A stretch of 56,895 bases of DNA from a bacterium (GTDB lineage Bacteria; Planctomycetota; Planctomycetia; Pirellulales; Pirellulaceae), in NCBI GenBank assembly GCA_024743355.1, contig JANSWS010000004.1, positions 1-56,895 of the forward strand. Direction: 5' to 3'. Below are positions 20,577 through 38,662 of the stretch, in pieces. Position 1 is the stretch's first letter, and every line of letters begins with the position of its first letter. A program made the position numbers and the translations under genes. The notes below the pieces were generated by a model. That model saw nothing but the letters and a program-made list of their open reading frames with translations. It did no database searches and was not told the origin of the DNA.

Positions 20577-22508
20577 ATGTCTGAAATTGCTCGCCCAACG
20601 GATTCGAATTATTGCTTTGACGTCATTGTGGTAGGTGCTGGACATGCAGGCACAGAGGCTGCCGCGGCCGCGGCCCGCCTGGGTGCGCGGGTGGCCCTGC
20701 TCACGGGAAATTTGGACACCGTCGGCCAAATGAGCTGCAATCCAGCTATCGGTGGCGTTGCCAAGGGCCAAATCGTGCGAGAGATCGATGCCTTGGGCGG
20801 CCTGATGGGAAAGGCTATCGACGAATCTGGCATTCAGTTCCGTATGCTCAATCGCCGTAAGGGCCCGGCCATGCACAGTCCGCGTGCACAGGCAGACAAA
20901 CGCCGCTACCAAGAGGCGATCAAGTACACCATAGAGAGCTATCCCAACCTCAGTTTGGTCCAGGAACAGGTCGAGGACCTGTTGTTGCAGCCCTGTGAGG
21001 ACACTTCACCCGACGAACAAACGTGGCGGCAGCGGGTCGCAGGAGTCCAAGTTCGAGGAGGTGCGCAATATTTGGCCCCAACCGTAGTGCTCACGACCGG
21101 CACATTCTTACAAGCAATCATGCACACCGGCGAATCCAAGACCGCAGGTGGGCGGGCAGGGGAGGGGACCTCCGCCGGTCTCAGCGGTTGCCTCAAACGA
21201 ATAGGCTTTCGAATCGAACGATTTAAGACCGGGACGCCTCCCCGTCTCAATGCGAAAACAATCGATTTCAACGTCACCGAAGAACAACCCGGAGATACCA
21301 ATCCCCAGCCATTCTCCTTCATGACAGCGGAGATCAGCGCGCCGCAGATCTCCTGCTTCATTACTTACACCAACGAACTAGTGCATGAGATCATCCGCAA
21401 GAATTTGCATCGAGCACCGATGTACTCCGGACAGATCAATTCCACCGGCCCGCGTTACTGTCCATCGATCGAAGACAAAGTCGTCCGCTTCGCCGACAAA
21501 GACAGGCATCAACTATTCTTGGAACCGGAGGGCCGAAAAACCTCGGAGATCTATGTCAACGGTATCTCGACCAGTCTTCCACGTGATGTCCAGGACCAGA
21601 TCATCCGACTCGTGCCGGGACTGGAACGCGCCGAAATCATGCGTTACGGCTACGCGGTCGAATACGACTTCTGCCCCCCAGACCAACTCTACCCGAATCT
21701 GGAGTCAAAGCCTGTTGCGGGACTATTCCTTGCCGGGCAAATCAACGGCACGACCGGATACGAAGAAGCAGGTTGCCAGGGATTGCTCGCCGGAGCCAAC
21801 GCAGCCCTGAAACTTGCCGGCAAAGAGCCCTTGGTGCTGTCACGTGATGCAGCCTACATGGGAGTCCTGATTGACGATTTGGTAACCCGCAGCGTTGATG
21901 AGCCGTATCGCATGTTCACCAGCCGCGCCGAATACCGCCTGCTGCTACGCCAAGACAATGCCGACCGCAGACTGACACGACTCGGCTATGAAATCGGCTT
22001 GGTGGACTCCGCTCGGATGGAAAGGCTAGCAACCAAGGAGGAAGCCATCGCCGTCGCCAAGCAGCATTTAGATGCCGGTAGGGTGGGCGAGATACCCGCC
22101 ACCAAGTACCTGAGAAGATCCGAAGTGACTTGGGAAGAAATCTGCCAACATGTTCCCCAATTGATGGGTTTGTCTGCCGAAATTCGCGACCAAGTACTGT
22201 GGGATATCCGCTACGAAGGCTATATCGGCCGTCAGGAACAGCAAGTCGACCGGCAGAAACGCCTGTCGCACAAGCGGATTCCGGCAGCCTTTCCCTATAG
22301 TAGCATCGTCGGCCTGCGAAACGAGGCGAAACAGAAACTGGATCGCATCCGACCAGCTAACCTGGACCAAGCAAGTCGTATTAGCGGCATTACGCCCGCC
22401 GACTTGGCATTGGTTCTGGCCCACCTCGAGTCGGGGACGCGCAAAACAAATCTGCAGTCCAATCCCAACGCAGCAACCAATTCATCGCCAACCTCCCAAA
22501 TACCCTGA
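20577..22508 (+). CDS. mnmG: tRNA uridine-5-carboxymethylaminomethyl modification enzyme MnmG
   Basis: 643 residues. The FAD motif is GAGHAGTEAAAAAARLG near residue 20. The GidA signatures are present: NPAIGGVAKGQIVREIDALGG, RKGPAMHSPRAQADK, GTFLQAIMHTGE, EGLSGCL-like GLSGCLKRIG and GLFLAGQINGTTGYEEAGCQG. The C-terminal helical region ends with SRISGITPADLALVLAHLE, as in MnmG. With MnmE it modifies U34 of tRNAs read at the wobble position, in the cytoplasm. No mnmE or rsmG gene is adjacent. A polar tail of about 25 residues is added. Confidence 0.97.
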   Translation: MSEIARPTDSNYCFDVIVVGAGHAGTEAAAAAARLGARVALLTGNLDTVGQMSCNPAIGGVAKGQIVREIDALGGLMGKAIDESGIQFRMLNRRKGPAMHSPRAQADKRRYQEAIKYTIESYPNLSLVQEQVEDLLLQPCEDTSPDEQTWRQRVAGVQVRGGAQYLAPTVVLTTGTFLQAIMHTGESKTAGGRAGEGTSAGLSGCLKRIGFRIERFKTGTPPRLNAKTIDFNVTEEQPGDTNPQPFSFMTAEISAPQISCFITYTNELVHEIIRKNLHRAPMYSGQINSTGPRYCPSIEDKVVRFADKDRHQLFLEPEGRKTSEIYVNGISTSLPRDVQDQIIRLVPGLERAEIMRYGYAVEYDFCPPDQLYPNLESKPVAGLFLAGQINGTTGYEEAGCQGLLAGANAALKLAGKEPLVLSRDAAYMGVLIDDLVTRSVDEPYRMFTSRAEYRLLLRQDNADRRLTRLGYEIGLVDSARMERLATKEEAIAVAKQHLDAGRVGEIPATKYLRRSEVTWEEICQHVPQLMGLSAEIRDQVLWDIRYEGYIGRQEQQVDRQKRLSHKRIPAAFPYSSIVGLRNEAKQKLDRIRPANLDQASRISGITPADLALVLAHLESGTRKTNLQSNPNAATNSSPTSQIP

Positions 22509-22749
22509 AAGCCTTTTCCTTCATCACAACGCATTGCCGGGTCTGCCATTACCGTCTCCGGCCATCACCTTGTATGTTGTTGGTCTATTGGCAGCGTGTA
22601 ATTGCGGAATTCGGGTGGACGAGTCAAGCAGGTAAGCATCACTGAGTAGAGCGCCGAGCCAGGAAATTTAGGAAACTTTTTCCACGCTTGTCTTTGCAGG
22701 ATCGACGTAAACCTCTGCCAAGGCTGGACTTACTACCTATCTTTCGATA

Positions 22750-22777
22750 TTGACCCAGTCACCCCATTCGGTATAAT
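22750..22777 (+). promoter_or_regulatory. Sigma-70-type promoter
   Basis: TTGACC (22750-22755), a 16-bp spacer and TATAAT (22772-22777) match the housekeeping consensus at 11 of 12 positions. It points toward the HTH-REC gene 212 bp downstream. It is the best housekeeping-type promoter I found in the window. Confidence 0.65.
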
Positions 22778-22867
22778 CCATGCGATCTGGCAAGCTTGGT
22801 AAGTTTGGCGGAAATAGGGATCGTAGAAGGAATACACGAGTGTCAGCATGAACGCGGCACTCGGCAT

Positions 22868-22924
22868 TAGCTTGGAACCTAAGCTAGTTGCTGATTTGAA
22901 CCGAACGATTCAAATGCCCTAGGG
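22868..22924 (+). promoter_or_regulatory. Cluster of three palindromes in the regulator leader
   Basis: TAGCTT-7nt-AAGCTA (22868-22886), ATTTGAA-8nt-TTCAAAT (22894-22915) and CCCTAGGG (22917-22924) lie back to back, ending 65 bp before the regulator ATG. They could be binding sites for the encoded HTH protein or RNA hairpins in its leader. Confidence 0.5.
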
Positions 22925-22989
22925 AAGGGAATATCTCCTGCCCAGGACGCGGCTAGCGTGGCCATCGATCAGGAAGGGTGGTGGATACC

Positions 22990-23580
22990 ATGTCAAATAG
23001 TAAGACTGTTTTCACAACGGGCGAAGCGGCAAAGATCTGCAAAGTCAGTCAGCAGACGATCATCCGTTGTTTTGATAATGGGACGCTCAAGGGTTTTCGA
23101 GTCCCGGGCAGTCGCTTTCGCCGTATTCCACGAGATCAGCTTTTTGCTTTCATGAAGGACAATGGCATCCCCACGGATGCACTGGAAAACGGCAAGAAGA
23201 AGCTGTTGATTGTGGATGACGAGCAAGATCTCGTGGACTTGATGGCCGATGCGTTTGAGCGTGACGGTCGCTTTGAAATCCGGACCGCCAACAATGGCTT
23301 CGACGCCGGCATGCAGGTCAAGGAATTTCGGCCTGACATCGTCGTGCTGGACGTGATGCTGCCCGATATCAACGGTAAAGAGGTTTGCCAAAGGGTGCGC
23401 AGCGACAGTACTTTGGACTCGGTCAAGATCATCTGTATTTCCGGGATGATTGAGCAAAACAAAGTCGGCGACCTGCGGGCTGCCGGTGCAGACGACTTTG
23501 TGCAGAAGCCTTTCACCGTAGATCAGTTGATCGATCGGGTTTGTGATCTGCTCGATATCGACAAGCCGGTAACCAATTAA
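22990..23580 (+). CDS. Response regulator with N-terminal excisionase-type HTH and C-terminal receiver
   Basis: 196 residues from ATG 22990, preferred over the GTGs at 22978 and 22981 because AGGAAGG (22971-22977) is better spaced. Residues ~8-58 (FTTGEAAKICKVSQQTIIRCFDNG...) form a MerR/excisionase-like winged HTH. Residues ~70-190 form a receiver domain with VDDEQD, phospho-acceptor Asp121 in LDVMLPDING, and the conserved Lys in VQKPF. The order HTH-REC is the reverse of the usual regulator layout. The next gene, 37 bp on, is a histidine kinase, so they form a two-component pair. Target genes are unknown; palindromes in its own leader suggest autoregulation. Confidence 0.9.
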   Translation: MSNSKTVFTTGEAAKICKVSQQTIIRCFDNGTLKGFRVPGSRFRRIPRDQLFAFMKDNGIPTDALENGKKKLLIVDDEQDLVDLMADAFERDGRFEIRTANNGFDAGMQVKEFRPDIVVLDVMLPDINGKEVCQRVRSDSTLDSVKIICISGMIEQNKVGDLRAAGADDFVQKPFTVDQLIDRVCDLLDIDKPVTN

Positions 23581-23617
23581 GTCGACCTCAGACTGAATCA
23601 TTCTCAGTGCCTGCCCC

Positions 23618-24760
23618 GTGAACAAAGCATCGGCAATTGGACGTTACACGATTGCCGATTCTACGGCCAATGCTCTGCTGGAACTTGTCCTGAAGTCGGG
23701 AGCTCTGGTTCCCGGCCAGTGTGTGGATTGGCTCGAGGCGGCTTGGCACGATTTATTGCAGAAAGACGAGCAGCTAACGCTTTGGGCCAGTTTCTGCCCG
23801 CCACCTGCAGCCTCGGAAAAGCACCCACTCTTGCCGCCAGACCTCGGCCGGAAACCGCGGATTCCTTCCCGCTCCCCAGCCCCGGCCGAAAATGGGCGTT
23901 ACCCGTTGAAGCTATGCGGTTGGATTCCGGAATGCGTGCTTGGCAGCGGTCGGCATTTACAGCCGCCGAATCCGGTATTGCGCGAGCAGTTGATCGAGGC
24001 GTCGCATCTGGCGGTTCGCGTAAGAGGTAGTTCGCTGGCGACCATCGAGCAATGGGAGCAGTCCAAACTGTCGTCTCTCTATCATCTGGCTTACGGGCTG
24101 AGCCACGAATTGAACAACCCTCTGGCCAACATTTCTACTCGAGCCGGCATTCTGCTGAGCCGCTGTAAAGACAAAGCCGACAGGGAAATGCTGCAAACTA
24201 TTGTCGACAATGCGATGCGTGGGTGTGAGATGCTGGGCGATTTGATGTTAATCGCACGTCCGCCTGAGCTTCAGTTTCATTATGTGGATGCCCGCAGCTT
24301 ACTCGAAAGTTTCCTCAACGACGCCATTCCCTGGGCCGAGCGGTGGGGCCTTGGCTTGCAGGCCGAGATCAATGTCCAGGCTAGCCTGCGGGTCGATGCC
24401 ACGGCAATTCGCGAGGCTTTATGGTGCCTTTTGCGGAATGCCATTGAGGCGTCGGCGGCCATAGCCGACGCGATCCAGATTCATTGCCAAGTAGATGATA
24501 GTCGTCCCTGGCTGCGGATTCAGATTCTTGATGAAGGGCCTGGTCTCAGCAGCGAATCCCGTCAGCATTGCTTCGATCCTTACTACAGCGGTCGTGAAGC
24601 GGGGCGGGGTTTAGGCATGGGATTGACCAAAGCTCGGCTTCTCATCGACTTGCATTCCGGGCGGCTGATTCTGGAAAACCGCGACGTGGGAGGCTGTTGT
24701 GCTCTGGTTGAATTGCCGCTGAGCGATAAGAATTCGCATGTGGCCGACGAGAAACCGTGA
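23618..24760 (+). CDS. Soluble sensor histidine kinase
   Basis: 380 residues from GTG 23618. The H-box LSHELNNPLANIS (His near 162) begins the dimerisation domain. The ATPase domain has the N-box LLRNAIEAS (about 272), DEGPGLS, and GRGLGMGLTKARLL. There is no signal peptide or membrane helix, so it senses an internal cue or is driven by a partner. The N-terminal 150 residues show no PAS or GAF hallmark I can name and contain a Pro-rich stretch. It directly follows the HTH-REC regulator and is its likely phosphodonor. Confidence 0.9.
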   Translation: MNKASAIGRYTIADSTANALLELVLKSGALVPGQCVDWLEAAWHDLLQKDEQLTLWASFCPPPAASEKHPLLPPDLGRKPRIPSRSPAPAENGRYPLKLCGWIPECVLGSGRHLQPPNPVLREQLIEASHLAVRVRGSSLATIEQWEQSKLSSLYHLAYGLSHELNNPLANISTRAGILLSRCKDKADREMLQTIVDNAMRGCEMLGDLMLIARPPELQFHYVDARSLLESFLNDAIPWAERWGLGLQAEINVQASLRVDATAIREALWCLLRNAIEASAAIADAIQIHCQVDDSRPWLRIQILDEGPGLSSESRQHCFDPYYSGREAGRGLGMGLTKARLLIDLHSGRLILENRDVGGCCALVELPLSDKNSHVADEKP

Positions 24761-25005
24761 TAGCATTTTGCGCTCGAGCCCAATGCATCGTGTGGCAAAC
24801 GCCGAGAATTGCTTGCGACCATCGAGCGTGTAGCCAGCAACCCGGGTGTTGATGGGCATGAAATTGCGGAAGACACGTCGCGATGGTTCCTGGCAACAAA
24901 GGCGGTATTCGCCAGGAGATTTGTGATGGCCGGGTAAGTCATTGGCCCCGTGGATGAATTACTAGCAATCAACTCAACCTTCAACTCTGCCGAGGCTCGG
25001 GCAAC

Positions 25006-26667
25006 TTGGAATCGACTTCACCTGTTGGCTGGCTTTCCCTTCTTCCGCCGCTCATCACCATCGTTCTCGCGATTGCCAGCAAGCGTGTTGTATTATCGCT
25101 GCTGATTGGGATTGTTTCGGCGATTGTGATTCTTCTTCCCTCCGCTTCCGCCCAGCAGGTCGTGCAAGGTTCTGACTTTACCTGGGGCGGTTATGTATGG
25201 GATTCGCTCTCTCATGGAGTAGTCGCCTTACTGGAAACTCATTTGTGGTCCACTCTTTTTTTGAGTGAGGATCATCTGCGTGTCTTCGCATTCACAACCT
25301 TGTTGGGGATGCAGGTGGCGATGATTCATCAAATGGGAGGCATGTTGGGCATCGTACAGTGGGCGACTCCTTTCATTCGAACACGGCGTGGCGGACAAGT
25401 GATGACTTGGCTGCTTGGCATGGTGATCTTCATTGACGACTATGCCAACACATTGCTGCTTGGTTCCACCATGCGTCCGGTAACCGACCGTTTGCGAATT
25501 AGCCGTGAGAAGTTGGCATTTCTGGTGGATAGTACGGCGGCTCCAGTATCTGGCTTGGCTCTGGTAAGCACGTGGGTAGCCACAGAGATCGGAAATATGG
25601 AGATTGGTTATAAGAACGCCGGAATCGACATCGGTGACGGTGCGTTTGGCATCTTTGTAAAGACCATTCCCACACGATTCTACGTCCTGTTCGCGCTCGT
25701 CTTTGTCCTTTTGTGTGCGCTGATGGGGCGTGATTTTGGGCCCATGCTGAAGGCCGAACGACGGGCGTTATCCGATGCCCCCGAAGATAAGTCGGATTCG
25801 CCCGACGCCTCGGACGCCATTCGCGGTCGCGCCATGAACGCGATTCTGCCAATTCTTTTAACCGTCCTGCTGGTCGTGTGGCTGTTGGTAGTCACCGGCA
25901 TTCAAGCCTCCGGAATTGAGAACTTGCCGCGGATCAGCGATTTCCAAGCCTGGGGACAAATCATCGGGCAGGGCAACAGCTACGTTGCCCTGCTGTATGG
26001 TGCTATGGGCGGCCTCATCGCCTGCTTGTTGCTCAATATCTTCCAACGCCTATTGGATCCCGAGGCTGTCCGAAAAACGCTGCTGCAAGGCTTTCTCCAC
26101 GTGCTGCCGGCATTGGTCATTTTGTGGTTGGCGTGGACTCTGAGTAATTTGACCGGCGAAGACTACCTGGGGACAGGCAATTTTCTGGCCGACAAACTGA
26201 ATCAAAGCAGCTTTAATCCGGCGTGGATGCCGACCGTCGTCTTCCTGATGTCTGCCGGAATTGCATTTTCGACCGGAACCAGTTGGGGAACCATGGCGAT
26301 CGTCATGCCCATGGTCATCCCCTTGGTTTACGGATTGCTAGCAAAGCAGGATGGAGGTGCCATGATCCCACCCGACCATTTTCTGCTGACCGCGTCCATT
26401 GGCAGCGTTCTGGCGGGCGCCATATTTGGTGATCATTGTTCTCCGATCTCGGACACGACCATCCTCTCCTCGCGCAGTAGTGACTGCAATCACATCGCCC
26501 ACGTCCGCACACAAATGCCCTACGCCTTGGTGGTGGGGTTGGTTTCAATTTTGCTGGGCACGATTCCCGCCGGCTTCAATGTGTCCAGCCTTTACTTGCT
26601 GCCAGCCGGAATTGCCGCGATGGCAGTAGTCTTGTTCCTGTTTGGACGTCATCCGGAACGTACCTAA
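25006..26667 (+). CDS. NhaC-family Na+/H+ antiporter
   Basis: 553 residues from a TTG start (MESTSPVG...); no better-placed ATG precedes the first helix. About 11-12 hydrophobic segments are visible. The conserved stretches GMVIFIDDYANTLLLG, STAAPVSGLALVSTWVATEIG and SAGIAFSTGTSWGTMAIVMPM belong to the NhaC/ion-transporter superfamily. GDHCSPISDTTILSSRSSDC near the C-terminus is typical of NhaC. It exchanges Na+ (or an organic solute) for H+ across the inner membrane. A solute-proton exchanger (for example malate/lactate type) is the alternative. Confidence 0.88.
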   Translation: MESTSPVGWLSLLPPLITIVLAIASKRVVLSLLIGIVSAIVILLPSASAQQVVQGSDFTWGGYVWDSLSHGVVALLETHLWSTLFLSEDHLRVFAFTTLLGMQVAMIHQMGGMLGIVQWATPFIRTRRGGQVMTWLLGMVIFIDDYANTLLLGSTMRPVTDRLRISREKLAFLVDSTAAPVSGLALVSTWVATEIGNMEIGYKNAGIDIGDGAFGIFVKTIPTRFYVLFALVFVLLCALMGRDFGPMLKAERRALSDAPEDKSDSPDASDAIRGRAMNAILPILLTVLLVVWLLVVTGIQASGIENLPRISDFQAWGQIIGQGNSYVALLYGAMGGLIACLLLNIFQRLLDPEAVRKTLLQGFLHVLPALVILWLAWTLSNLTGEDYLGTGNFLADKLNQSSFNPAWMPTVVFLMSAGIAFSTGTSWGTMAIVMPMVIPLVYGLLAKQDGGAMIPPDHFLLTASIGSVLAGAIFGDHCSPISDTTILSSRSSDCNHIAHVRTQMPYALVVGLVSILLGTIPAGFNVSSLYLLPAGIAAMAVVLFLFGRHPERT

Positions 26668-26969: not shown

Positions 26970-28670
26970 GTGAAAGTAATTTCTCAATTCGGCGAACATT
27001 CAGCCAAGCAGATCACTTCGATGCCTCTGTCCCTGCGTTTCATGGCAGGCTTGCTGGTTGTGGTGGTAGCAGTCTGCGCTGTGTGGACTTTGTCGGTTTA
27101 CGACATCCATGACAAGTCATTCATCTTGGGAAAACTATCGGCTGACGAAATCCGGAGGGCCGAAGAGGCCTTTGGCAAGGCCGAGTTGAACGGTTACGAA
27201 GTCGTCAATGGCTCCCAGCTGCGAGTACCTTCATCACGCAAGGCCGAGTATCTTCGCGCCCTGTCGTCGGCTGAGGCGATGCCATCAGCCTGGGGCGACA
27301 GCTATAAGGACTCGTTGCAACCGAAACTCTTTGAATCGATGTCTGACCGCGAATGGCGGCACGAACTCCTGCGTGAGCGGGCATTGGAAGAAATCCTATG
27401 CCGTCGCCCAGAGATCGACAGCGCCTTTGTCGAGTACGACGAAGTAAAGGCGGGCTTTACCCAAGAATGCACGCGCACCTGCTGTATTCACGTCCAGCAA
27501 AAGAATGGGCAACCCATCCCTGACGCAGTTTTGCAAAGCATTCGTGAGGCGGCCACCAAATATTTCGCCGGCCTGACGGGCGAGAACGTGTCGGTGGTGG
27601 ACTTGGGGACTTCCTACCTATCACAGAACGAATCCGCTTCCCAAATACACGCCGACAATCCCCTGTTAGCGCTCAAGGCGCAGTGGGAGGAGTACTACCT
27701 GAATAAGGTGCGGGAACTGCTGGTCAATTATGGCGACGTCAAGGTTGGTGTGACGGTCGATCTGGCCAACCCGAAAACCGATAGTCCCCTGCAACAAGAG
27801 TCGAGCGAGTCGGCCCCGACGGAAATTCGGTCCGTGATTCGCAAACGCTTGGAGGTTCAGTCTGACGACGCAAGCCAGTTTGCAATGCAGCCGGAATCGG
27901 AGAGATCCGGCAGCTTGAACCGACCGCAGTCTATCGTGAGCCGAACGGAAGAAACGGAAGAAACCAAAATTACTCGGTCCGAGACAAAAACAACCGCCGA
28001 GGCGCTGGCAGCCATCCGCCCCAGTTCGGTGCGGATCAGCATTGGGGTGCCAGAATCGCAATACCTGAAAATCTTCCGCCATAGGCAGAGAATGGCTCAT
28101 CCAGATGGCGAAGCATCTCAAACCTGGCCGGCCCCAAACGATGAAGAATTGACCGAGCTCCAGACTCAGGTAAAGCAAGTCGTGCAGGCTGCCATCGAAG
28201 GCATCCCACCGCGGCCAGGCTTTACGCCGCTGGATAGCGAGAACAGCCTGGCTCAGGCCTCGAAGAGTTCCCAAACTCCATGGATCAATGTTTACTCCTA
28301 CCCAGACCTTCCAGAGGATGTTCCTCCGCCCGCGGACCTGCTGCAACAAGCCACGCTCTGGTTTGCAGACTCGTGGGCAACACTGGTCCTGTTAGGCCTA
28401 ACGATTTCTTGCTTGGGCTGGGCGATGCTGTGGATGCGGTCTCCTACATCACCAACTTCGCCAATCTCTAGCCAACCGCGCGCGTCCGCCGGTGCAAATC
28501 TGGACACCGTGATCAGCGACGAACCTTTCGATATGGCTAGTCCCGCCGCGGTGACTCCGATATCCGACGAGACAACCGAGCACATCAAAGAGGATCTCTC
28601 TGAACTGATTCGTAATCACCCCGAGGCAGCCAAGACGTTGCTGAAGACTTGGCTCGGCGACGCTGCTTGA
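26970..28670 (+). CDS. fliF: Flagellar MS-ring protein FliF
   Basis: 566 residues from GTG 26970 after GAGG. A first membrane helix is at ~25-46 (FMAGLLVVVVAVCAVWTLSVY) and a second near 465-488 (ATLVLLGLTISCLGWAMLW). Between them lie the YscJ/FliF ring-building region (FGKAELNGYEVVNGSQLRVPSS..., RALEEILCRRPEIDSAFVEYD) and a charged linker. The C-terminal tail LSELIRNHPEAAKTLLKTWLG fits the FliG-binding peptide. FliF forms the MS-ring in the inner membrane. Divergence from enterobacterial FliF is high but the topology is right. The next flagellar gene, flhA, comes after a sulfotransferase gene on the other strand. Confidence 0.85.
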   Translation: MKVISQFGEHSAKQITSMPLSLRFMAGLLVVVVAVCAVWTLSVYDIHDKSFILGKLSADEIRRAEEAFGKAELNGYEVVNGSQLRVPSSRKAEYLRALSSAEAMPSAWGDSYKDSLQPKLFESMSDREWRHELLRERALEEILCRRPEIDSAFVEYDEVKAGFTQECTRTCCIHVQQKNGQPIPDAVLQSIREAATKYFAGLTGENVSVVDLGTSYLSQNESASQIHADNPLLALKAQWEEYYLNKVRELLVNYGDVKVGVTVDLANPKTDSPLQQESSESAPTEIRSVIRKRLEVQSDDASQFAMQPESERSGSLNRPQSIVSRTEETEETKITRSETKTTAEALAAIRPSSVRISIGVPESQYLKIFRHRQRMAHPDGEASQTWPAPNDEELTELQTQVKQVVQAAIEGIPPRPGFTPLDSENSLAQASKSSQTPWINVYSYPDLPEDVPPPADLLQQATLWFADSWATLVLLGLTISCLGWAMLWMRSPTSPTSPISSQPRASAGANLDTVISDEPFDMASPAAVTPISDETTEHIKEDLSELIRNHPEAAKTLLKTWLGDAA

Positions 28671-28738
28671 TTTATCGCTAGCGTGCTCTTCTGCACGAGC
28701 ATGCCCAAATGCATGGAAACCGCTGCTGCTCCCCGTAG

Positions 28739-28763
28739 GTTGCACTCTGTGGGGCAGAGCAAC
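28739..28763. terminator. Hairpin between convergent fliF and sulfotransferase genes
   Basis: GTTG-CA-CTCTG pairs with CAGAG-CAAC around a 5-nt loop. A 12-bp palindrome AACTCATGAGTT overlaps its end (28761-28772). No T-run is present. It sits in the 170-bp gap where two transcripts converge, so it may help end either. Confidence 0.35.
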
Positions 28764-28840
28764 TCATGAGTTAACGCCAGAGCTACAAGCCGGTTGACTC
28801 GCCTGTGGATTGGAGGCTTGCAATACCGGAGTCGAGGGCT

Positions 28841-30019
28841 CTAGCTGGCGTGGCTGGCTTGCTCTTCCGTCGAGCAAGCATAACCGTAACGGCGGCAATA
28901 ATCCGGCCAGGACTGCATAACATGGCTCCGCAGCTCTTCATCGATCGCATGTCGATTGGGTTTGTATTCCTGGTGCCCGGCTAAACGTGTTTGTAGAGGC
29001 TGCAACGCATCGGAAAAGTCGCCAAGTTCCAGGTCTCGATAGAGTCCTTCAATTGCCTGCAAGGGATCGGCGATAAGATCCTCGTATCGGAGGTCAACGA
29101 TGCGAGACGCATCGATCTGCTCGCGATCTTTTTCGAATTGTTGATACATGATCTGATGGCATTCCGTAACGTACTCCTCCGTTTCCGATTCGGCAGGGGA
29201 TTCCTGTAAGGCCTGGACTTCTTCCAGCGAACGCCACAGTCGTACCGTTGATGAAAAGAGTTGCGTTGGATCCCGGGTTAGATGAATAAACTTGGCCTGG
29301 GGGAACAGTTCGGCCAGGAATTTCAGTCGCCCCGTATGCGTGGGACTCTTCAGTACCAACTGTTTGCCACCGTAGTGGAAAGTCAGCACTTTCAAGAACC
29401 ATACGAATTGGCGTGTCCACTCGGCGCGTTGCTGCGGGCTGAGCTTCTCCAGAGTCAAATACTCCAGGCTTTTCGGCTGCGTCCTGGGAAATGCGATCCT
29501 CAGGTAGGGTGTTGGCAAGCCGAGATTCATCAAAGCAAACTCGTCTTCTTGCGGCAGCAGCCAGCCCGCATCCATATTGTCCATCGGCCTTCGCTTGGGC
29601 AGCAAGAATCCACCCAGAGTCACCATCGGCAACTCACTCAATAAGAAATGCCATGGCGCAAAGCATTCAAACGTATTTGGCGATGCAAATTGCGGATTGG
29701 TCACCAGTAATTCGTGCAGCAACGTGGTTCCGCTCCGCCAGTGCCCGAGGATAAAAATCGGCGGCTTCTCAATTTCAGTACGGGCAATCCGCCGCCCAAA
29801 AACAATACGCTGCGCGAGCGCCAACACATCGTTAAATGGACTGACCAGACACACCCCTGTGGCGATATGAATACGGCTTAGGTCAACCTGAAACCCGTTT
29901 TTTGCCAGCAACCCCCACCAGGTAGGGGCCTTCATGCCGTGCCAAAAGCGAGGGCTGTAATACGGGTAGTGATTCGTAGGTGCATCCATACGATCTGCTG
30001 ATGTGGAAGAGGACGCCAT
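28841..30019 (-). CDS. Sulfotransferase family protein
   Basis: 392 residues from ATG 30019; Met11 (29989) is possible. The PAPS 5'-phosphosulfate loop GHWRSGTTLLHELL starts at residue 92. The 3'-phosphate-binding region is KFIHLTRDPTQLFSST. No signal peptide is visible. The enzyme would transfer sulfate from PAPS to a hydroxyl or amine; planctomycetes carry many sulfotransferases and sulfatases (recalled). It interrupts the flagellar cluster on the opposite strand. Substrate unknown: a carbohydrate or protein tyrosine is possible. Confidence 0.85.
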   Translation of the reverse strand: MASSSTSADRMDAPTNHYPYYSPRFWHGMKAPTWWGLLAKNGFQVDLSRIHIATGVCLVSPFNDVLALAQRIVFGRRIARTEIEKPPIFILGHWRSGTTLLHELLVTNPQFASPNTFECFAPWHFLLSELPMVTLGGFLLPKRRPMDNMDAGWLLPQEDEFALMNLGLPTPYLRIAFPRTQPKSLEYLTLEKLSPQQRAEWTRQFVWFLKVLTFHYGGKQLVLKSPTHTGRLKFLAELFPQAKFIHLTRDPTQLFSSTVRLWRSLEEVQALQESPAESETEEYVTECHQIMYQQFEKDREQIDASRIVDLRYEDLIADPLQAIEGLYRDLELGDFSDALQPLQTRLAGHQEYKPNRHAIDEELRSHVMQSWPDYCRRYGYACSTEEQASHAS

Positions 30020-30192
30020 TGCTGTCGACTGGTGCGGAAGCGATTGAGGCGACGCAGAATTGCTATCGAACGAACCATAGCAAGCTCTCTGGACATCGCA
30101 ATTCGAAATTCAGTACGAACTTGGGTGAAGCGGTCCACAGGTCAGTGCGTGTCACCAAGCTGTGGGGCAGTGGGAGTATGCCAAGAATCCTG

Positions 30193-30209
30193 ATAGCCGA
30201 AAAGGCTAT
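30193..30209 (+). other. Short hairpin upstream of flhA
   Basis: ATAGCC-GAAAA-GGCTAT followed by TTTCT. It is small (6 bp) but perfect and lies 45 bp upstream of the flhA start. It may be a weak attenuator or terminator, or chance. Confidence 0.35.
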
Positions 30210-30253
30210 TTCTAAGCCGCAATGGACCGAAGCATGCGAGGGATCGAAACGGA

Positions 30254-32350
30254 ATGACGCAGCTGCAAGCTCTCTTCGCCCGTTACCGGGGGCTCATCTT
30301 ACCCGTCTCCATTCTAGCCTGTATCGGGGTCTTGCTGGTACCGCTACCGCCCTTTGTCATGGACATTCTGCTGGCGGTGAATATTGCCATCTCTTTGATT
30401 GTCCTGTTGACCGCAATTTACGTGCGTTCACCCATTGAGTTTAGTGTTTTCCCCTCGCTGTTGGTGGCCACCACGCTGGCCCGACTTGTGCTGAATGTCG
30501 GCACCACCCGACTGATCTTGACGCATGCGGGCGAGCGTCGCGATTTGGCCGCTGGAGGCATGATCAGCGCTTTTGGCAACTTTGTGGCCGGCGAGTTCGT
30601 CATCGTAGGGGTCGTCGTTTTCGCCATTATTGTCATCATCCAGTTTCTAGTGATCACCAAGGGAGCCACGCGTATCAGCGAGGTTGCCGCCCGCTTCGCC
30701 TTGGATGGACTTCCTGGAAAGCAGATGGCCATCGATGCGGAACTAAATTCTGGAACTATTGATGACGCGGAAGCTCGCAAACGGCGGGAACAGTTGGCGG
30801 TTCATGCAGATTTCTACGGTGCCATGGATGGAGCCAGTAAGTTTGTCCGCGGCGATGCGGTGGCGGGGGTGTGCATCACGCTGATCAATATCATCGGCGG
30901 ACTGACCATCGGTATCTTCCAGTTTCAAATGCCGCTCTCCGATGCAATCGATGTTTTTACGCGTCTGACCATTGGTGATGGATTGGCCAGCCAGATCCCA
31001 GCCTTTCTGATTTCAATTGCCGCTGCCATGCTGGTAACCCGCAACACGCACACGGAAGACCTTTCCAACGAGCTGTTAAAGCAACTCTTCTCACAGCCGC
31101 AAACTTTGGCTGTGGCAGGGGTATTCCTGGCGTTGCTGGTGTTCACCAATCTGCCGACAATCCCTTTGTTGCTGCTTGGCTCCGCCTGTATCAGCCTATC
31201 CTGGCTCATGCGACGGCACGCCCATCTCAAGGTACAAGAGGAGATAGACGCCGAGCGTGAGGCAGCCAGGGAACAGGCACAGCGTCCCAACAGTCCTGAG
31301 CAATTGCTTTTGGTGGATCCGCTCCGCATCGAGATCGGCGTCGAGCTGCTGCGACTGGCTGATCCGCAACGTGACGGAGATCTCATGGAACGGATCACTA
31401 CCGTTCGAGGCACGCTGGCACGCGAAATGGGCTTTCTGCTGCCTAAACTAAGGCTGAAGGATAATCTGGAGCTGAAACCCACTCAGTACCAAATCTTGAT
31501 CGGAGGCAATGTGGTGGCCAAGGGCGAAGTCTTGCCGGGCCATGTGCTGGTGCTGGAACCCCAAGGCTCTGCCGCGCTCGACCAAGGATTGAAAACCACC
31601 GACCCCATCCAGGGTCGACCCGCCGTTTGGTTGAATTCCCAAACAGCTTCGCATTTGCTACCGGAGCAGACCAGATACTTTACGCCGTCCCAACTGATTG
31701 CCAATCATTTGGAACAAACTGCCCGTCATCATGCTTCCGAACTGCTATCGCGTGAAGTCACCAAGCAGCTGGTGGACGAGCTTCGCAAGGTCAGTCCCGC
31801 CATCGTCGAGGAACTCATTCCTGGTCAGTTGTCGTTGTCGATGGTCCAGCAGGTGCTAAGAGGACTCTTGGCCGAAGATGTGCCCATTGGACAACTCGGA
31901 TTAATCCTAGAAACTTGTGGTGATTGCATACATCGCACTCAAGACCCACTGGTGCTCACGCAGTTCGTGCGTGAACGCCTTTCACGCACGATTTGCCGCC
32001 GCTTTGGCACCACCTCTGGCCGCTTGTACGCAATTACGTTGGACGCGGCACTGGAGGATCGTATCGCGGAGCACATGGAAGTAACCGACGATGGAGTTAT
32101 GCTGCGTCTATCCCCGACCGAAATCACTGGCGTCTGTGAGCAGATTGAAGCGATACGGCGGGCAGCTGTCACAAACCGACAATTTCCCGTGCTGCTCGTT
32201 CGCCCCAGCATTCGACGAGCTGTCCGCGAAATGACTCGCAGCCGCGTTCTTGGCCTGCCCGTGCTAAGCCTCGCCGAGATTACTTTTGAAACCAAAATCA
32301 TCTCTCTCGGCCAGGTCCATTCATCGATGACGCTGGTAGGTAGGCCATGA
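30254..32350 (+). CDS. flhA: Flagellar export-gate protein FlhA
   Basis: 698 residues, the family length. Eight hydrophobic segments lie in the first ~330 residues, with the signature IEFSVFPSLLVATTLARLVLNVGTTRLIL and the FHIPEP region DGLPGKQMAIDAELNSG. A large cytoplasmic C-terminal domain follows (DPLRIEIGVELLRL...; LSREVTKQLVDELRK). FlhA forms the nonameric export gate that recruits chaperone-substrate complexes. Its stop overlaps the flhF start (ATGA at 32347-32350), so the pair is translationally coupled. It is diverged at the 5' side from the sulfotransferase gene. Confidence 0.97.
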   Translation: MTQLQALFARYRGLILPVSILACIGVLLVPLPPFVMDILLAVNIAISLIVLLTAIYVRSPIEFSVFPSLLVATTLARLVLNVGTTRLILTHAGERRDLAAGGMISAFGNFVAGEFVIVGVVVFAIIVIIQFLVITKGATRISEVAARFALDGLPGKQMAIDAELNSGTIDDAEARKRREQLAVHADFYGAMDGASKFVRGDAVAGVCITLINIIGGLTIGIFQFQMPLSDAIDVFTRLTIGDGLASQIPAFLISIAAAMLVTRNTHTEDLSNELLKQLFSQPQTLAVAGVFLALLVFTNLPTIPLLLLGSACISLSWLMRRHAHLKVQEEIDAEREAAREQAQRPNSPEQLLLVDPLRIEIGVELLRLADPQRDGDLMERITTVRGTLAREMGFLLPKLRLKDNLELKPTQYQILIGGNVVAKGEVLPGHVLVLEPQGSAALDQGLKTTDPIQGRPAVWLNSQTASHLLPEQTRYFTPSQLIANHLEQTARHHASELLSREVTKQLVDELRKVSPAIVEELIPGQLSLSMVQQVLRGLLAEDVPIGQLGLILETCGDCIHRTQDPLVLTQFVRERLSRTICRRFGTTSGRLYAITLDAALEDRIAEHMEVTDDGVMLRLSPTEITGVCEQIEAIRRAAVTNRQFPVLLVRPSIRRAVREMTRSRVLGLPVLSLAEITFETKIISLGQVHSSMTLVGRP

Positions 32351-33528
32351 AGATCCAAACATTTCGAGCTCACACCTTACAAGAGGCGCTGCGCCAAGCA
32401 CGGCTGGAACTGGGTCCGCGTGCTTCGCTCGTCCATATTCGGGAGATCCGACCCAAAAAGCGTTTTGGCGGCCGCGGTAAAAAAATCATCGAAATTGATG
32501 CCAGTAGTGACATCGTTGTTCCCTCACGCTTCTCGGCCAGTGCCGCCGTCTCCCAGTCAGGTCTGTCGGAGTCACCAGTAACTTCCGAACATCATGCAGC
32601 TAACGCGGAGGTCTCCGAAACCAAGGCACCGACTGCGAGTGTTGAACCCTCGGCCAGCCTGGACTCCCACCCAACGCAGCGGAAACCCGCGGTTGCAGGA
32701 CAGTCGGACGAGCAGCAAATCGCTTCCCAAGCCCTTTATCAGCGTCTCCTCGAAAATAGCGTGGATGCCAAATCGGCCAGCGAACTGATCGTCAGTGCCG
32801 AAATCCAAGCCAAGTCCCAGAACATTCACGGTACTTTCGCGTTGTCGGAAATGCTGCTGCAAAACATCGCCAACAACCTGAACACCGGAGGCAGTCTCGA
32901 TCTTTCGTCAGGACATCCGCAAGTGATGGCCTTTGTCGGACCATCGGGAGTCGGTAAGACATCCTTGGTGACCAAGCTTGCAAAACTGGCACACCGCGAG
33001 CACCGCGCGAACATTGGCTTCATCACTTTGGATCCGTCCCGACACGGGGCTGTTGAGCAGCTGCTGTACGTGGCCGAACAGCTTTCGGCTTCGCTCGAAG
33101 TTATCGGACAAACGCGTCAAATGGCCTCCGCGCAAGCCCGACTGGAGGACTGCGACTTGATTCTGATCGATACTCCGGGGCGTTCCTTCAAAGACTCACA
33201 GCACATGAGCGGCCTGAGAGAACTGCTGCGTGCCGCACGACCCACACACACCTGTCTGGTCCTCAACACCTGCTACTCGGAGTGTTGTGCCCAGCAGGTA
33301 ATCCAGGCATACTCGCAGCTGCCTGCAACGCATCTGGCCCTGTCCAAACTGGATGAAGTTGCAGGATTTGGCGGCTGGTACGCATTGTTGGCTAACTGCC
33401 CTCTACCCATCAGCTATATCTCCACAGGGCAGGCAGCCCCCGATGATTTAATCACCGCCAGCCCAGAGCTGCTGGCATCATATTTGGCTGGTGCAAACAT
33501 CGCCCAACCTCTTTCCCGAGCTGCCTGA
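32347..33528 (+). CDS. flhF: Flagellar GTPase FlhF
   Basis: 393 residues. The N-terminus MKIQTFRAHTLQEALRQARLELG is the family opening. A variable Ser/Ala/Pro-rich basic region runs to ~150, followed by the N domain and the SRP-type GTPase with GPSGVGKTSLVTKLAKLA (198-215), DTPGRS and LSKLDEVAGFGG. FlhF positions flagellum assembly at the pole. Its start lies inside the flhA stop. FlhG, its usual ATPase partner, does not follow; a 32-codon ORF begins at its stop. Confidence 0.95.
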   Translation: MKIQTFRAHTLQEALRQARLELGPRASLVHIREIRPKKRFGGRGKKIIEIDASSDIVVPSRFSASAAVSQSGLSESPVTSEHHAANAEVSETKAPTASVEPSASLDSHPTQRKPAVAGQSDEQQIASQALYQRLLENSVDAKSASELIVSAEIQAKSQNIHGTFALSEMLLQNIANNLNTGGSLDLSSGHPQVMAFVGPSGVGKTSLVTKLAKLAHREHRANIGFITLDPSRHGAVEQLLYVAEQLSASLEVIGQTRQMASAQARLEDCDLILIDTPGRSFKDSQHMSGLRELLRAARPTHTCLVLNTCYSECCAQQVIQAYSQLPATHLALSKLDEVAGFGGWYALLANCPLPISYISTGQAAPDDLITASPELLASYLAGANIAQPLSRAA

Positions 33529-33626
33529 TGAGCCGCCAGGAGGTGCGGCAACGAAGCATCCATTTGGCGCTCTTAGCCTCACTGGGCAATTTGCAGAAGA
33601 ACTGCGGATTGCCAAGAGAAAACTAA
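33528..33626 (+). CDS. Possible 32-residue peptide overlapping the flhF stop
   Basis: The flhF TGA (33526-33528) shares its last base with an ATG (TGATG), opening a frame of 32 residues: MSRQEVRQRSIHLALLASLG then NLQKNCGLPREN. It could be made by translational coupling. It shows no similarity I recognise, and FlhG is absent at this position. A chance ORF is quite possible. Confidence 0.3.
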   Translation: MSRQEVRQRSIHLALLASLGNLQKNCGLPREN

Positions 33627-33736
33627 ACTCGACCGCCTGATCAACCGATACTTACCTGCTAGGGGATCCTCTACCTGGTAGTGGGTTCCACGGAAGGAAC
33701 ATTGATCGACCGGACGTAGCGAACGGAGGCGGCAGA

Positions 33737-33970
33737 ATGGCCCGAGCATATTCTGGCATGCTGGGGATATTCGCCTGGAGCCTCGTAGTGTTGCGCGGCC
33801 TCATGATGGATCTCCAGACCAATCATATCCTCATTACCGGACTAGTGATTTTCTCAATTTTCGCGGCTCTTGGATTTTGCATCGGCAAGATCTTGGATGA
33901 AGCTCGCCGCGAAGGTTCAGAACATCGTCTCACATCTGAGACGGCCCAAGCAAGATTTGACGGTCGCTAG
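33737..33970 (+). CDS. Small membrane protein, unknown function
   Basis: 77 residues. GGAGG (33725-33729) sits 7 bp before the ATG, a strong ribosome site. Two hydrophobic segments (MLGIFAWSLVVLRGLMM and HILITGLVIFSIFAALGFCIG) flank a short loop, followed by an acidic/basic tail ending ETAQARFDGR. It lies between flhF and fliA on the same strand, so a flagellar link is likely by context. I do not recognise the family. Confidence 0.55.
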   Translation: MARAYSGMLGIFAWSLVVLRGLMMDLQTNHILITGLVIFSIFAALGFCIGKILDEARREGSEHRLTSETAQARFDGR

Positions 33971-34271
33971 CAATTCTGCTTCTCCATAGCAGTTTGAGAA
34001 TAAGTTGGCATAGCATCCATACGAGGTTCCCGCTAAAAGTTCGCTAGCAGCATAAGACATTCCTAATGCCTGCCAACGAAAGAGTTCAACGAGCTCTTCG
34101 GGCAGTCGTCGGGATCGTCGCAGCAGAGCTATTGGCAATGTTGCGGTTGCTGATTTTTACTACTGTGCACCCCAGGGGATGGGAGCATAGTCAGAGCAGA
34201 AAACTGCCGTGCATCAATCGTTCCTTAAATGCACACGCGTTGAATCTGCCAGTCGACTCACGGAGGATTGG
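33971..34271 (+). other. Leader region upstream of fliA
   Basis: 301 bp. The GTG-started extension at 34209 is judged noncoding because GGAGG at 34262-34266 points to ATG 34272. No promoter or RNA gene was recognised. Confidence 0.5.
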
Positions 34272-35057
34272 ATGGCAACGAGGACCGCGCCCGAAGAAGA
34301 TATCCAGGAAGTTTGGAAGCAATACAAAGCTGACCCTGAGAATATCGACTTACGCAATCGCCTTATTGAACAATACATGCCGTTAGTTCGATACAACGGT
34401 GACCGCATCTGGCAGCGACTGCCGGACGGCGTAGAGCTGGACGATTTGATCAGCGCTGGTATTTTTGGGTTGATGGACGCCATCGACGCTTTCGACACCA
34501 GTCGCGGCGTCAAATTCGAAACCTATTGTGTTCCGCGAATTCGCGGCGCGATGCTCGACGAACTGCGTTCCATGGATTGGGTACCGCGGCTCGTCCGCAG
34601 CAAGGCTAGCAAGCTGGGTGAGGCTAAGAAACGCCTCGAAGCTCGATACGGAAGAGCACCTACCGAAACCGAGCTGGCGGAGTATATGGAAATCAGCATC
34701 GCCGAACTGGACAAGATGCAATCCGAATCCAATGCCGTCAATCTAGTCAGTCTCAATAAGAAATGGTACGAGACAGACAGCTACAAAGACGTTCGTGAAA
34801 TCGACATCCTGGAAGACAAAAAGGGCGAGGACCCAACGCGCCGCGTTCAAAAGGGTGACCTGATGCGGCTAGTCACCAAGGGACTCAATCGCAATGAACG
34901 CCTGATCATCATCCTCTACTATTACGAGGAATTGACGATGAAGGAGATCGGGGCGACGCTGGATCTCAGTGAAAGCCGAGTGAGCCAAATGCACTCGAGC
35001 ATTGTCGCCAGACTTCAAGAGCAACTGGGCCGCAGGCGCCCCGAATTCGGAACCTAG
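34272..35057 (+). CDS. fliA: Flagellar sigma factor FliA (sigma-28)
   Basis: 261 residues from ATG 34272 with GGAGG upstream. Region 2 reads LMDAIDAFDTSRGVKFETYCVPRIRGAMLDELR; region 3 has LVRSKASKLGEAKKRLEARYGR; region 4 is LNRNERLIIILYYYEELTMKEIGATLDLSESRVSQMHSSIVARL. This is the flagellar/WhiG sigma family, without region 1. It would drive late flagellar and motility genes. It lies downstream of flhA-flhF and is followed by a terminator, which separates it from the fliG-fliJ unit. Confidence 0.95.
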   Translation: MATRTAPEEDIQEVWKQYKADPENIDLRNRLIEQYMPLVRYNGDRIWQRLPDGVELDDLISAGIFGLMDAIDAFDTSRGVKFETYCVPRIRGAMLDELRSMDWVPRLVRSKASKLGEAKKRLEARYGRAPTETELAEYMEISIAELDKMQSESNAVNLVSLNKKWYETDSYKDVREIDILEDKKGEDPTRRVQKGDLMRLVTKGLNRNERLIIILYYYEELTMKEIGATLDLSESRVSQMHSSIVARLQEQLGRRRPEFGT

Positions 35058-35127
35058 TCCGAGGCGAGTGTTGACTTCTGGGATCTACTCCCACGCATTA
35101 GAGATCTGCTTCCTGCAATTTATTTAG

Positions 35128-35152
35128 GGCATCCATCGGATGCCCTTTTTTC
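35128..35152 (+). terminator. Rho-independent terminator after fliA
   Basis: GGGCATCC-ATC-GGATGCCC followed by six Ts (35147-35152). The stem is 8 bp with a 3-nt loop. It lies 70 bp after the fliA stop and ends the flhA-fliA transcript. Confidence 0.85.
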
Positions 35153-35286
35153 GTTTTGGCGTTGCCAGCGAGGCAAACGTTCCACACCACGATAAGTCCC
35201 TAAGGACGCAGCTCAGCGCCCTGCATTGGAGGCTGATAACACGCGAACAATCAGTGGATCACTCTCGACATGCAGGCCTGCAAACG

Positions 35287-35314
35287 GCTAAGTAATCTCT
35301 GTCAGTAACTTAGC
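35287..35314 (+). promoter_or_regulatory. Inverted repeat upstream of fliG
   Basis: GCTAAGT (35287-35293) and ACTTAGC (35308-35314) flank a 14-nt loop and end 25 bp before the fliG ATG. A 12-bp palindrome TGCAGGCCTGCA lies at 35271-35282. Both fall in the gap between the fliA terminator and fliG, where a new promoter is expected. An operator or a leader hairpin is possible. Confidence 0.45.
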
Positions 35315-35339
35315 GTCCGATTCAATCTTGATCGAGCTT

Positions 35340-36482
35340 ATGCCTAGCACCAAAGCCCCATTGGGAAGCCTGGACGAGACCCGTCTGCGAAAGATCGCCC
35401 TACTCATTTGCAGTGTCGATGCTACCGCGGCTCAACAGCTGATGTTGCAGCTTCCTTCGGAGATTGCCGCAGAAGTGCGAGCTATCATGGCGACCTTGTC
35501 ACGCCCCGAGTCCTCCGAGCAGCAACGCCTGCTGGAAGAACTTCAACGCCTAGCGGCCAACACCGTGGCTGCCACTGGCGGACAGAGACCAATCGATGGC
35601 CTAACCGGCGAACACCACGCATGCCAGCAGAGCAGTCCGAATTGGTGGACGCGAAACACGGACGACATCGCGGACATATTGATTCACGAACGACCCCCAG
35701 TAATCGCGGCCATCATCAGTCGACTGCCGGCCGATGAATGCATCGAGTTGCTCAAGTGCTTTAGTTCACAATTGAGTGCTCAGATCTTGAGCTGTATATC
35801 CAAGCTGCGAGAGTTGGATACAGTCGTCGAATCTGAAATCGACGATTACATGGCATCCAAGTGCGGCAATCAGCCTGGTAAACAGAACCCGCCCCAAGGC
35901 TCGCGGCGACTGCGACAGCTCAACGCTATTCTCGAAGCTGCCCCCGACGAACTGCAGCACCAGTGGCGCAAGGCACTGGTACCTGCCCCGCAAAAGGAGA
36001 CCACAGCGTCCACGCACAACAGCCCACGCACGGATGCAGTGCAACCGGATCATCCCAGAATTCACGAAGTCGATTTCGACGCAGACAATGCGGAAGCCGC
36101 TCGGGCAGGCGAGCATGAGTTATCCGAGTTTCAGAATATGCCAACTGCGGAAGATGGCTGCTGGCAGGATGACCACACGCACTCTGAGGAGTTCGCGGAA
36201 GAGCCAACGGATCACCTGGAACTCCTTCACCGACTGACCGACACGGAACTGGTATCGTTATTCGATCGCGCCGACGCCGAAACCCTGGTAGTGGCCCTGG
36301 CTGGCGCGGACCCGGCCTTGATCGACAGACTTACCAGTGTTTTGGATTCTGACCGCTTGTCCGCGATTGACGAAGGCATGAAACAACTCGAACACCTACA
36401 GTTGGGTGATATCGATGAAGCACAACAGCGATTGGTCGTACTGGCCCAGCAAATAAGTCCCATCCGACGTTTAGCCTCTTAG
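35340..36482 (+). CDS. fliG: Divergent flagellar motor switch protein FliG
   Basis: 380 residues from ATG 35340 (a TTG at 35328 is in frame). The middle domain has IHERPPVIAAIISRLPADECIELLKCF, aligning with the family's ENPQTIALILSHL region. The C-terminal torque domain is LTDTELVSLFDRADAETLVVALAGADPALIDRL...DIDEAQQRLVVLAQQI. Between them lies a long acidic, His-rich linker (about 215-290) not typical of FliG. The canonical EHPQ motif is HERPP. Position directly before fliH-fliI-fliJ supports the call. It should form the C-ring stator contact. Confidence 0.8.
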   Translation: MPSTKAPLGSLDETRLRKIALLICSVDATAAQQLMLQLPSEIAAEVRAIMATLSRPESSEQQRLLEELQRLAANTVAATGGQRPIDGLTGEHHACQQSSPNWWTRNTDDIADILIHERPPVIAAIISRLPADECIELLKCFSSQLSAQILSCISKLRELDTVVESEIDDYMASKCGNQPGKQNPPQGSRRLRQLNAILEAAPDELQHQWRKALVPAPQKETTASTHNSPRTDAVQPDHPRIHEVDFDADNAEAARAGEHELSEFQNMPTAEDGCWQDDHTHSEEFAEEPTDHLELLHRLTDTELVSLFDRADAETLVVALAGADPALIDRLTSVLDSDRLSAIDEGMKQLEHLQLGDIDEAQQRLVVLAQQISPIRRLAS

Positions 36483-36597
36483 GGTTTTGTCAGGAGAAGA
36501 GCGGGCGTTTGGAAATACATTCGGACAGCAGGCTTGATAGATCGTAGCAGCCAGCCCTTTCTCCAAGGCTCTCGATTCCTCCGGATATGGAAACAAC

Positions 36598-37272: not shown

Positions 37273-37273
37273 A

Positions 37274-38629: not shown

Positions 38630-38662
38630 TTGCACCCACCTTTCGAAGCAGTTTTCCCTTCC

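Follow-up and report, generated by a model that had tools for sequence, protein, structure and literature searches.

A conserved promoter, direct-repeat array and structured leader in front of a two-component regulator gene of the Planctomycetia

The locus and its genes

We have analysed a stretch of 56,895 nucleotides (nt) from a bacterium of the family Pirellulaceae (GenBank assembly GCA_024743355.1, contig JANSWS010000004.1, positions 1 to 56,895 of the forward strand; here the window), and in it a two-component gene pair together with the region that precedes it. The window is contig G000:C272 of the host assembly (8.3 Mb, 823 contigs, completeness 98.5%). Behind the end of mnmG (22508) follow a 200-residue response regulator, with an HTH_17 DNA-binding domain ahead of its receiver (REC) domain, and a 380-residue histidine kinase. 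By computation the regulator is near-universal and of the HTH_17-REC type; a soluble kinase usually comes after it, and a conserved strong promoter and repeats precede it.

22750..22777, plus strand: sigma-70-type promoter TTGACC-N16-TATAAT, with a predicted transcription start near 22784
22789..22815, plus strand: array of 9-bp direct repeats GGCAAGCTT GGTAAGTTT GGCGGAAAT, the predicted operator for the regulator's own helix-turn-helix (HTH)
22990..23580, plus strand: response regulator, HTH_17 at about 23011-23163 and receiver at about 23206-23541; the reading frame is also open from GTG 22978
23618..24760, plus strand: soluble histidine kinase, with a variable N-terminal region, HisKA at about 24086-24259 and HATPase_c at about 24395-24724

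The named loci nearest to that of the window are from Pirellulaceae and other Planctomycetota. Comparisons at the level of the order used the best 80 of 555 candidate loci, near-duplicates among them. Promoters were scored in those 78 of 81 order loci, the window included, whose upstream sequence spans at least 450 nt.

A conserved promoter

A promoter of the form TTGACC-16-TATAAT had been proposed in a sequence-only reading of this DNA, and it is present at 22750-22777. It matches 11 of 12 consensus letters and is the sole one found in 22300-25100. Such a match in a single sequence does not exceed the shuffle level (1 found, 1.7 expected), and the weight of the promoter therefore comes from its conservation. 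Among the 78 order loci the promoter score was 11/11 in 42, 10 in 7, 9 in 28 and 7 in one, and of 234 shuffled sequences 16 reached 9 and none scored higher. In the rest of the class 17 of 20 loci scored 10 or 11, and outside the class only 2 of 14 scored 10/11. The leader of about 205 nt that the same reading had described is confirmed, and since the promoter is conserved a transcription start near 22980, which had been named as an outcome that would speak against that reading, is unsupported.

An array of 9-bp direct repeats behind the -10 box

Just 3' of the -10 box lie direct repeats with the consensus GGYAAnnTY. The upstream regions of the relatives read TTGAC-N16-TATAAT and then TTGGCAAnnTCGGTAAnnTCGG. 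The array was scored in the 77 order loci with a promoter score of at least 9; within the 60 nt after the -10 box the 20-mer GGYAANNTYGGYAANNTYGG scores at least 17 in 72 of them, and in none of 385 shuffles. The flanking controls gave 0/77 in the following 60 nt and 0/77 before the -35 box. GG pairs are in excess at the period of the array, with 166 observed against 39 expected at 9 nt and 109 against 26 at 18 nt. The array keeps an almost constant distance from the -10 box, 10 nt in 33 and 11 nt in 15 of the 72 loci.

Because the consensus came from the order loci, some of which are near-duplicates, a fairer test is offered by the remainder of the class. Among the 18 loci there with a promoter score of at least 9, none of them used for the consensus, the array scores at least 15 in 11, a level reached by 7% of letter shuffles, and in 9 it begins exactly 10 nt past the -10 box. 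In the 14 loci from outside the class the unit of promoter and array was not seen, and none of the five loci scored for the array there exceeded 14/20.

In its own genome the array has one exact match in 8.3 Mb, that of the regulator itself. With up to 2 mismatches 26 matches were found, against 12 for a backward control, and 24 of the 25 looser matches overlap open frames that are 80 codons or longer (L197 alone is free of them). A role of the array as a genome-wide operator was rejected on these grounds. Exact matches in the relatives number 40, in 26 of 60 genomes. Thirty of these loci were examined; 12 adjoin the regulator, and in each of these the match is closely preceded by TTGAC and a -10-like box. 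None of the other 18 has a promoter pair by eye; L138 has TTGAC alone, and all of the 18 but L124 lie in an open frame.

The array persists in L050, L053 and L055, where no kinase adjoins the regulator, and this argues that self-control can do without the neighbouring kinase. We infer that the array is the likely binding site of the regulator, with self-repression over the transcription start as the simplest mode of action.

The array sits at the very start of the transcript, and could instead act as RNA, whether as a repeated protein site, as a G-quadruplex of two tiers or within the folded leader. In line with this, helices flanking it pair slightly better than arm swaps (79 sequences; mean 10.9 against 9.9, standard deviation 0.22, 0 of 200 swaps as high). 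However, these helices lack a common register across clades, the conserved AA, T and Y beside the GG exceed what a quadruplex needs, the nearly fixed distance to the -10 box speaks for DNA, and the 9-bp period matches a known DNA site of the same kind of HTH. An RNA role of the array is on balance unlikely. The array region might also encode a short leader peptide for translational control, as one frame of the repeat reads Gly-(Lys/Asn)-(hydrophobic). In only 5 of 72 loci does the stretch that separates the -10 box from the array contain an in-frame ATG, GTG, TTG or CTG, for which reason this candidate was rejected, and the array of L019 also carries a 1-nt insertion; we consider a peptide extremely improbable.

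The palindromes of the leader

The sequence-only reading had placed the self-control of the gene in three palindromes of the leader.

22868-22886, no strand assigned: palindrome P1 TAGCTTGGAACCTAAGCTA, without conservation in the genus, predicted to fold into a strong local hairpin and overlapping the 5' arm of RNA helix A (see below)
22894-22915, plus strand: palindrome P2 ATTTGAACCGAACGATTCAAAT, a hairpin enclosed by the two arms of helix A
22917-22924, no strand assigned: palindrome P3 CCCTAGGG, within a semi-conserved stretch, not conserved as a palindrome

All three exist and lie near the gene start, as would suit binding sites of a dimeric regulator, but their frequency is close to chance: an inverted repeat of the size of the best one occurs in 8.25% of dinucleotide-shuffled leaders, and two in 4.85%. 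That reading had named the absence of the palindromes from related genomes as an outcome against it, and by sequence P1 and P2 are absent from 13 leaders of the same genus, where the best matches have 4-5 mismatches in 12 arm letters for P1 and 5-7 in 14 for P2 (P3, 1-4 in 8). Near the place of P2, L002, L003 and L008 carry perfect hairpins of differing sequence (AATCTGTAACCAGATT, GATCTGCTCCAGATC and AATCTGAGGTCAGATT, respectively), and for P2 an RNA hairpin is therefore a better reading than a binding site. The palindromes were rejected as operators, given their near-chance frequency and lack of conservation, and it is highly improbable that they are the sites of the regulator. The self-control that had been proposed is well supported, though mainly through elements other than those named, the 9-bp array in particular.

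The response regulator

The regulator scores 38.2 bits against HTH_17 (PF12728; cut-off 27) and 34.2 bits against the excisionase-type model TIGR01764 (cut-off 28.8), and its receiver, at 85.2 bits against the Pfam model Response_reg, is above the curated threshold of 30.2. The proposal that the DNA-binding domain precedes the receiver thus holds. Residues D72 D73, D117, S147 and K169 are invariant in 36 of 36 aligned regulators; they correspond to the acidic pair, the phospho-acceptor Asp, the Ser/Thr and the Lys of the receiver. In the predicted structure (mean predicted local distance difference test, pLDDT, 91.6) an N-terminal helical HTH with short strands is joined to a standard receiver fold.

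Classical response regulators share the invariant catalytic residues and the receiver fold (VIA-align Z 22.4, root-mean-square deviation 1.1, 118 residues against the VicR receiver 8fk2). They differ in that their output domain is C-terminal, whereas here the DNA-binding domain is N-terminal and of the HTH_17 type. Among the fold-search matches displayed there were receivers and kinase cores and no HTH, and these searches are uninformative about the latter.

The best match starts no earlier than residue 5 in 43 of 60 genomes, and ATG 22990 is therefore the better placed start codon than GTG 22978; the GTG is part of the 3' arm of a hairpin that is conserved.

The regulator has a match in all 60 genomes of the order sample, with an identity of 70-94% when its own copy and one fragment (G014) are excluded. 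In the class sample 196 of 198 genomes match at 1e-30 or better and an orthologue is present in 193; G144, G171 and G191 were not counted, as the best match there is no closer than a paralogue. The DNA-binding domain is almost invariant among the class members displayed. By these matches an orthologue is near-universal in the class. In the phylum sample 60 of 199 genomes pass the 1e-30 threshold, and outside the class the identity reaches 53-59% in a few families and otherwise lies at about 30-48%.

The same genome encodes a second HTH_17-REC-like paralogue, about 36% identical, at G000:C138:5526-6071, without a promoter-array unit of the regulator's type in the upstream stretch read. A second regulator-like match is present in most class genomes sampled.

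Resemblance to BldC and other HTH proteins

BldC of Streptomyces binds 9-bp direct repeats in a head-to-tail manner, with CAATTCGGACAATTCGGACA as the site in the crystal and AATTXXXX(C) as the repeat consensus (PMC5859096). BldC has a MerR-related winged HTH (wHTH; PMC5859096), and its sites, 9-bp direct repeats that contain AA and CGG elements, resemble the present case. The position of its base-reading Arg30 is also Arg in the regulator (TIIRC in the window, TVTRW in BldC), and its wing Gly44 is kept by profile alignment, with the roles of both residues as given in the same paper. The 9-bp direct-repeat site near the target promoter, found in the 72 of 77 order loci, is a resemblance of the site only. 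The HTH profile finds the BldC chains weakly (6amk, expect value (E) 0.073; 6ama, E 0.14). BldC differs in being a stand-alone wHTH of 68 residues, whereas the present HTH is fused to a receiver, and the regulator scores 19.4 bits against the NCBIfam model HTH_BldC, whose cut-off for membership is 77.

The best solved structure for the HTH profile is 8jbs/8jbt, a putative cobalamin-binding protein; it differs in being a 327-residue protein of another build with no receiver match reported.

A folded leader RNA

Further downstream the leader can form RNA structures.

22883..22890, plus strand: 5' arm of helix A GCTAGTTG, pairing with 22950-22957
22950..22957, plus strand: 3' arm of helix A CGGCTAGC, partner of 22883-22890
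22961..22982, plus strand: hairpin D (GCCATC / GGTGGT), with the Shine-Dalgarno sequence AGGAAGG (22971-22977) in and beside its loop

Single-sequence folds of the relatives show, besides internal hairpins, a long helix A and a hairpin D that exposes the Shine-Dalgarno sequence in its loop. Automatic alignments of whole leaders gave no consensus fold or weak ones, because sequence alignment put the helix arms out of register; a MAFFT alignment of the genus misplaced several 5' arms as well and was left out of the counts. In an unfitted alignment of ten sequences the covariation was 0.216, against 0.150 +/- 0.015 in shuffles, with 0 of 500 as high. In 28 model-fitted sequences (alignment A7) it was 0.266 against 0.160 +/- 0.010, all 8 pairs of helix A had two-sided changes, and sliding the partners destroyed the covariation. 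With the arms placed by eye in the window's genus, 93 of 112 cells of helix A are paired against a swap mean of 77.1 (2 of 2000 swaps as high), although the helix is not formed in L009 and L010 and is partial in L013 and L014. The Shine-Dalgarno hairpin is found in 44 of 70 order loci, against 26% of shuffles.

A covariance model was searched against 99 sources, which represent part of the loci, and gave 26 matches at E <0.2, a line drawn after the results were known. All 26 are directly upstream of the regulator and 16 are new to the model, some of these being short (33-59 nt) and resting mainly on hairpin D. The window is matched at 22863-22983 with E 0.055, and the first match elsewhere has E 0.57. 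In 60 whole genomes, at E up to 1, there were 25 matches in 21 genomes; 21 are directly upstream of the regulator and the remaining 4 lie elsewhere (E 0.39-0.68). We consider the leader RNA a candidate new RNA family with good covariation, limited to part of the order.

Rfam (release 15) gave no match at gathering in the window and none at E up to 5 in 22740-23010. Rhodopirellula-1 is a candidate RNA listed for Planctomycetes and Proteobacteria (PMC2864571), which may or may not be identical with the present leader.

The window can form helix A with 8 of 8 pairs, and hairpin D has a pair probability of 0.84-0.90 in the full window leader. Within 22862-22957 the P1 hairpin and helix A are mutually exclusive in the predicted fold, and helix A reaches 99-100% once the upstream half of P1 is left out. 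This exclusion may represent a switch or drift, P1 not being conserved.

A GGA in a hairpin loop over the Shine-Dalgarno sequence marks targets of CsrA. The leader has features of this type, with the GGA in the loop of hairpin D, and CsrA genes are present in the genome: 7 copies are above the Pfam cut-off and one further match is below it. The same genome also contains a probable CsrA-REC fusion (L208, G000:C72:10300-12300, frame 0, 286 aa), in which a CsrA domain, a helical-looking stretch and a receiver-like domain follow one another within one open frame.

The folded leader could thus be the main control, as a riboswitch or bound by CsrA, with the array as a minor element and the P1 hairpin and helix A as the two switch states in the window. 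The strong covariation, the looped GGA, the CsrA copies and the two exclusive folds are in its favour. On the other hand, the fold is limited to a clade, whereas promoter and array reach further; no Rfam family is matched; and since P1 is not conserved the two-state idea is drawn from a single sequence. We find it rather improbable that the leader RNA is the principal control.

The histidine kinase

Both catalytic domains of the kinase are above their cut-offs (HisKA 33.6 bits, cut-off 26.9; HATPase_c 56.1 bits, cut-off 26.4). Its highest 19-residue Kyte-Doolittle mean is 1.13, that is, no membrane helix by hydropathy. Among relatives' kinases, chosen by a rough motif rule, the highest value is 1.74 (L035, near the C-terminus) and most are <1.6, with no clear membrane helix, and no sensory Pfam domain was found in any of ten relatives scanned. 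Both results support the earlier proposal of a kinase without a membrane helix that responds to an internal signal. In the N-terminal region, residues 63-115 have an AlphaFold confidence <50. The HE[LI]NNP phospho-acceptor box and the fold of the kinase core are shared with AtoS and ZraS, which give the best NCBIfam scores (92.7 and 77.6 bits, respectively, both far under cut-off); the window kinase differs from them in that hydropathy shows no membrane helix, no sensory domain is recognised and the N-terminal region is very divergent.

A kinase match lies within 2.5 kb downstream on the same strand in 66 of 80 loci, and in 63 of the 74 with at least 2.5 kb of room. The 11 loci with room and no recognisable adjacent kinase are L046, L050, L052, L053, L055, L058, L059, L068, L071, L078 and L092, and 7 of them bear the name Pirellula. 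The best-segment identity is 32-52% (median 39%) for the kinase and 74-94% for the regulator. The adjacent kinase is, by this measure, fast-evolving; with the kinase divergent and sometimes missing and the regulator conserved, the signal input appears to vary while the output is constant.

Genomic surroundings

20577..22508, plus strand: mnmG, adjoining the regulator on its upstream side

The gene mnmG is found within 2 kb upstream of the regulator in 35 of 80 loci, and in 32 of 66 where at least 2.5 kb of room exists. Downstream of the kinase is a gene of the Na+/H+ antiporter family (25006-26667); 21 of 80 relatives have such a gene no more than 3 kb downstream of the regulator. It is followed by flagellar genes (26970-39166) for FliF-like and FHIPEP (FlhA-like) proteins, an SRP54-type GTPase (probably FlhF), a sigma-70 family factor (probably FliA), FliG, FliH, a FliI-like export ATPase and, below cut-off, a FliJ-like protein, with a sulfotransferase gene on the minus strand (28841-30019) among them. 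A flagellar linkage of the regulator is not apparent from the relatives, with a FliF match in 3 of 80 loci (L031, L034 and L036), though many of the 80 end too early to show one.

Discussion

The gene pair is ordinary by its parts, and the region of self-control is unusual and conserved. The promoter-array unit and the covarying leader RNA of the relatives are the strongest results. No publication on the regulator or its leader was found in the literature searched, a search whose coverage leaves out most subscription journals. On balance we favour, with some reserve, the view that this two-component regulator is a core one of planctomycetes and governs its own synthesis by direct-repeat autoregulation together with a structured 5' untranslated region.

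According to this view the BldC/excisionase-like HTH would bind the repeats head-to-tail across the transcription start, and the bound regulator would block or tune RNA polymerase and thereby hold the level of regulator constant. The soluble kinase would phosphorylate the C-terminal receiver and so alter the head-to-tail oligomerisation, while the RNA fold would set the translation of the message, perhaps through a protein such as CsrA on the GGA of the hairpin loop.

Several observations weigh against this view. At the level of the order, the array consensus was derived from the same loci that it scored (the best 80 of 555, some nearly identical), and the other sites of any regulon would not resemble the array. 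The top solved match of the HTH profile is not BldC but the putative cobalamin-binding protein 8jbs (E 2.7e-05), and the register of the BldC consensus AATTXXXX(C) (PMC5859096) is one base off the AAnnTYGGY of the array. As for the RNA, on two of five measures in the ten-sequence alignment 33 and 85 of 500 shuffles scored at least as high, and A7 is an alignment fitted to the covariance model. That model has no match in 39 of 60 order genomes, and several of its matches cover little beyond hairpin D. In the rest of the class the Shine-Dalgarno hairpin is unsupported (2 of 20, against 16% of shuffles). Finally, in the full window leader an extended P1 hairpin beats helix A by 4.0 kcal/mol, leaving helix A a probability of 0.6%.

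Because the profile match to BldC is weak, the register is shifted by one base and the score is below the family cut-off, we infer by analogy that the HTH of the regulator works like BldC, and do not equate the two.

A bolder proposal, which we offer as tentative and hold to be less probable than autoregulation as such, is that of a master regulator of the class Planctomycetia whose BldC-like HTH would form phosphorylation-gated filaments, head-to-tail, on a class-wide operator of direct repeats where its own transcription starts, with a new leader RNA family that would gate translation of that gene in part of the Pirellulales.

Planctomycetes are a phylum known for unusual cell biology. The presence of the regulator in 193 of 198 class genomes, with a nearly invariant HTH, marks a core control circuit of the class. 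The predicted operator, if true, would extend direct-repeat head-to-tail binding from the small BldC to a regulator that is controlled by phosphorylation.

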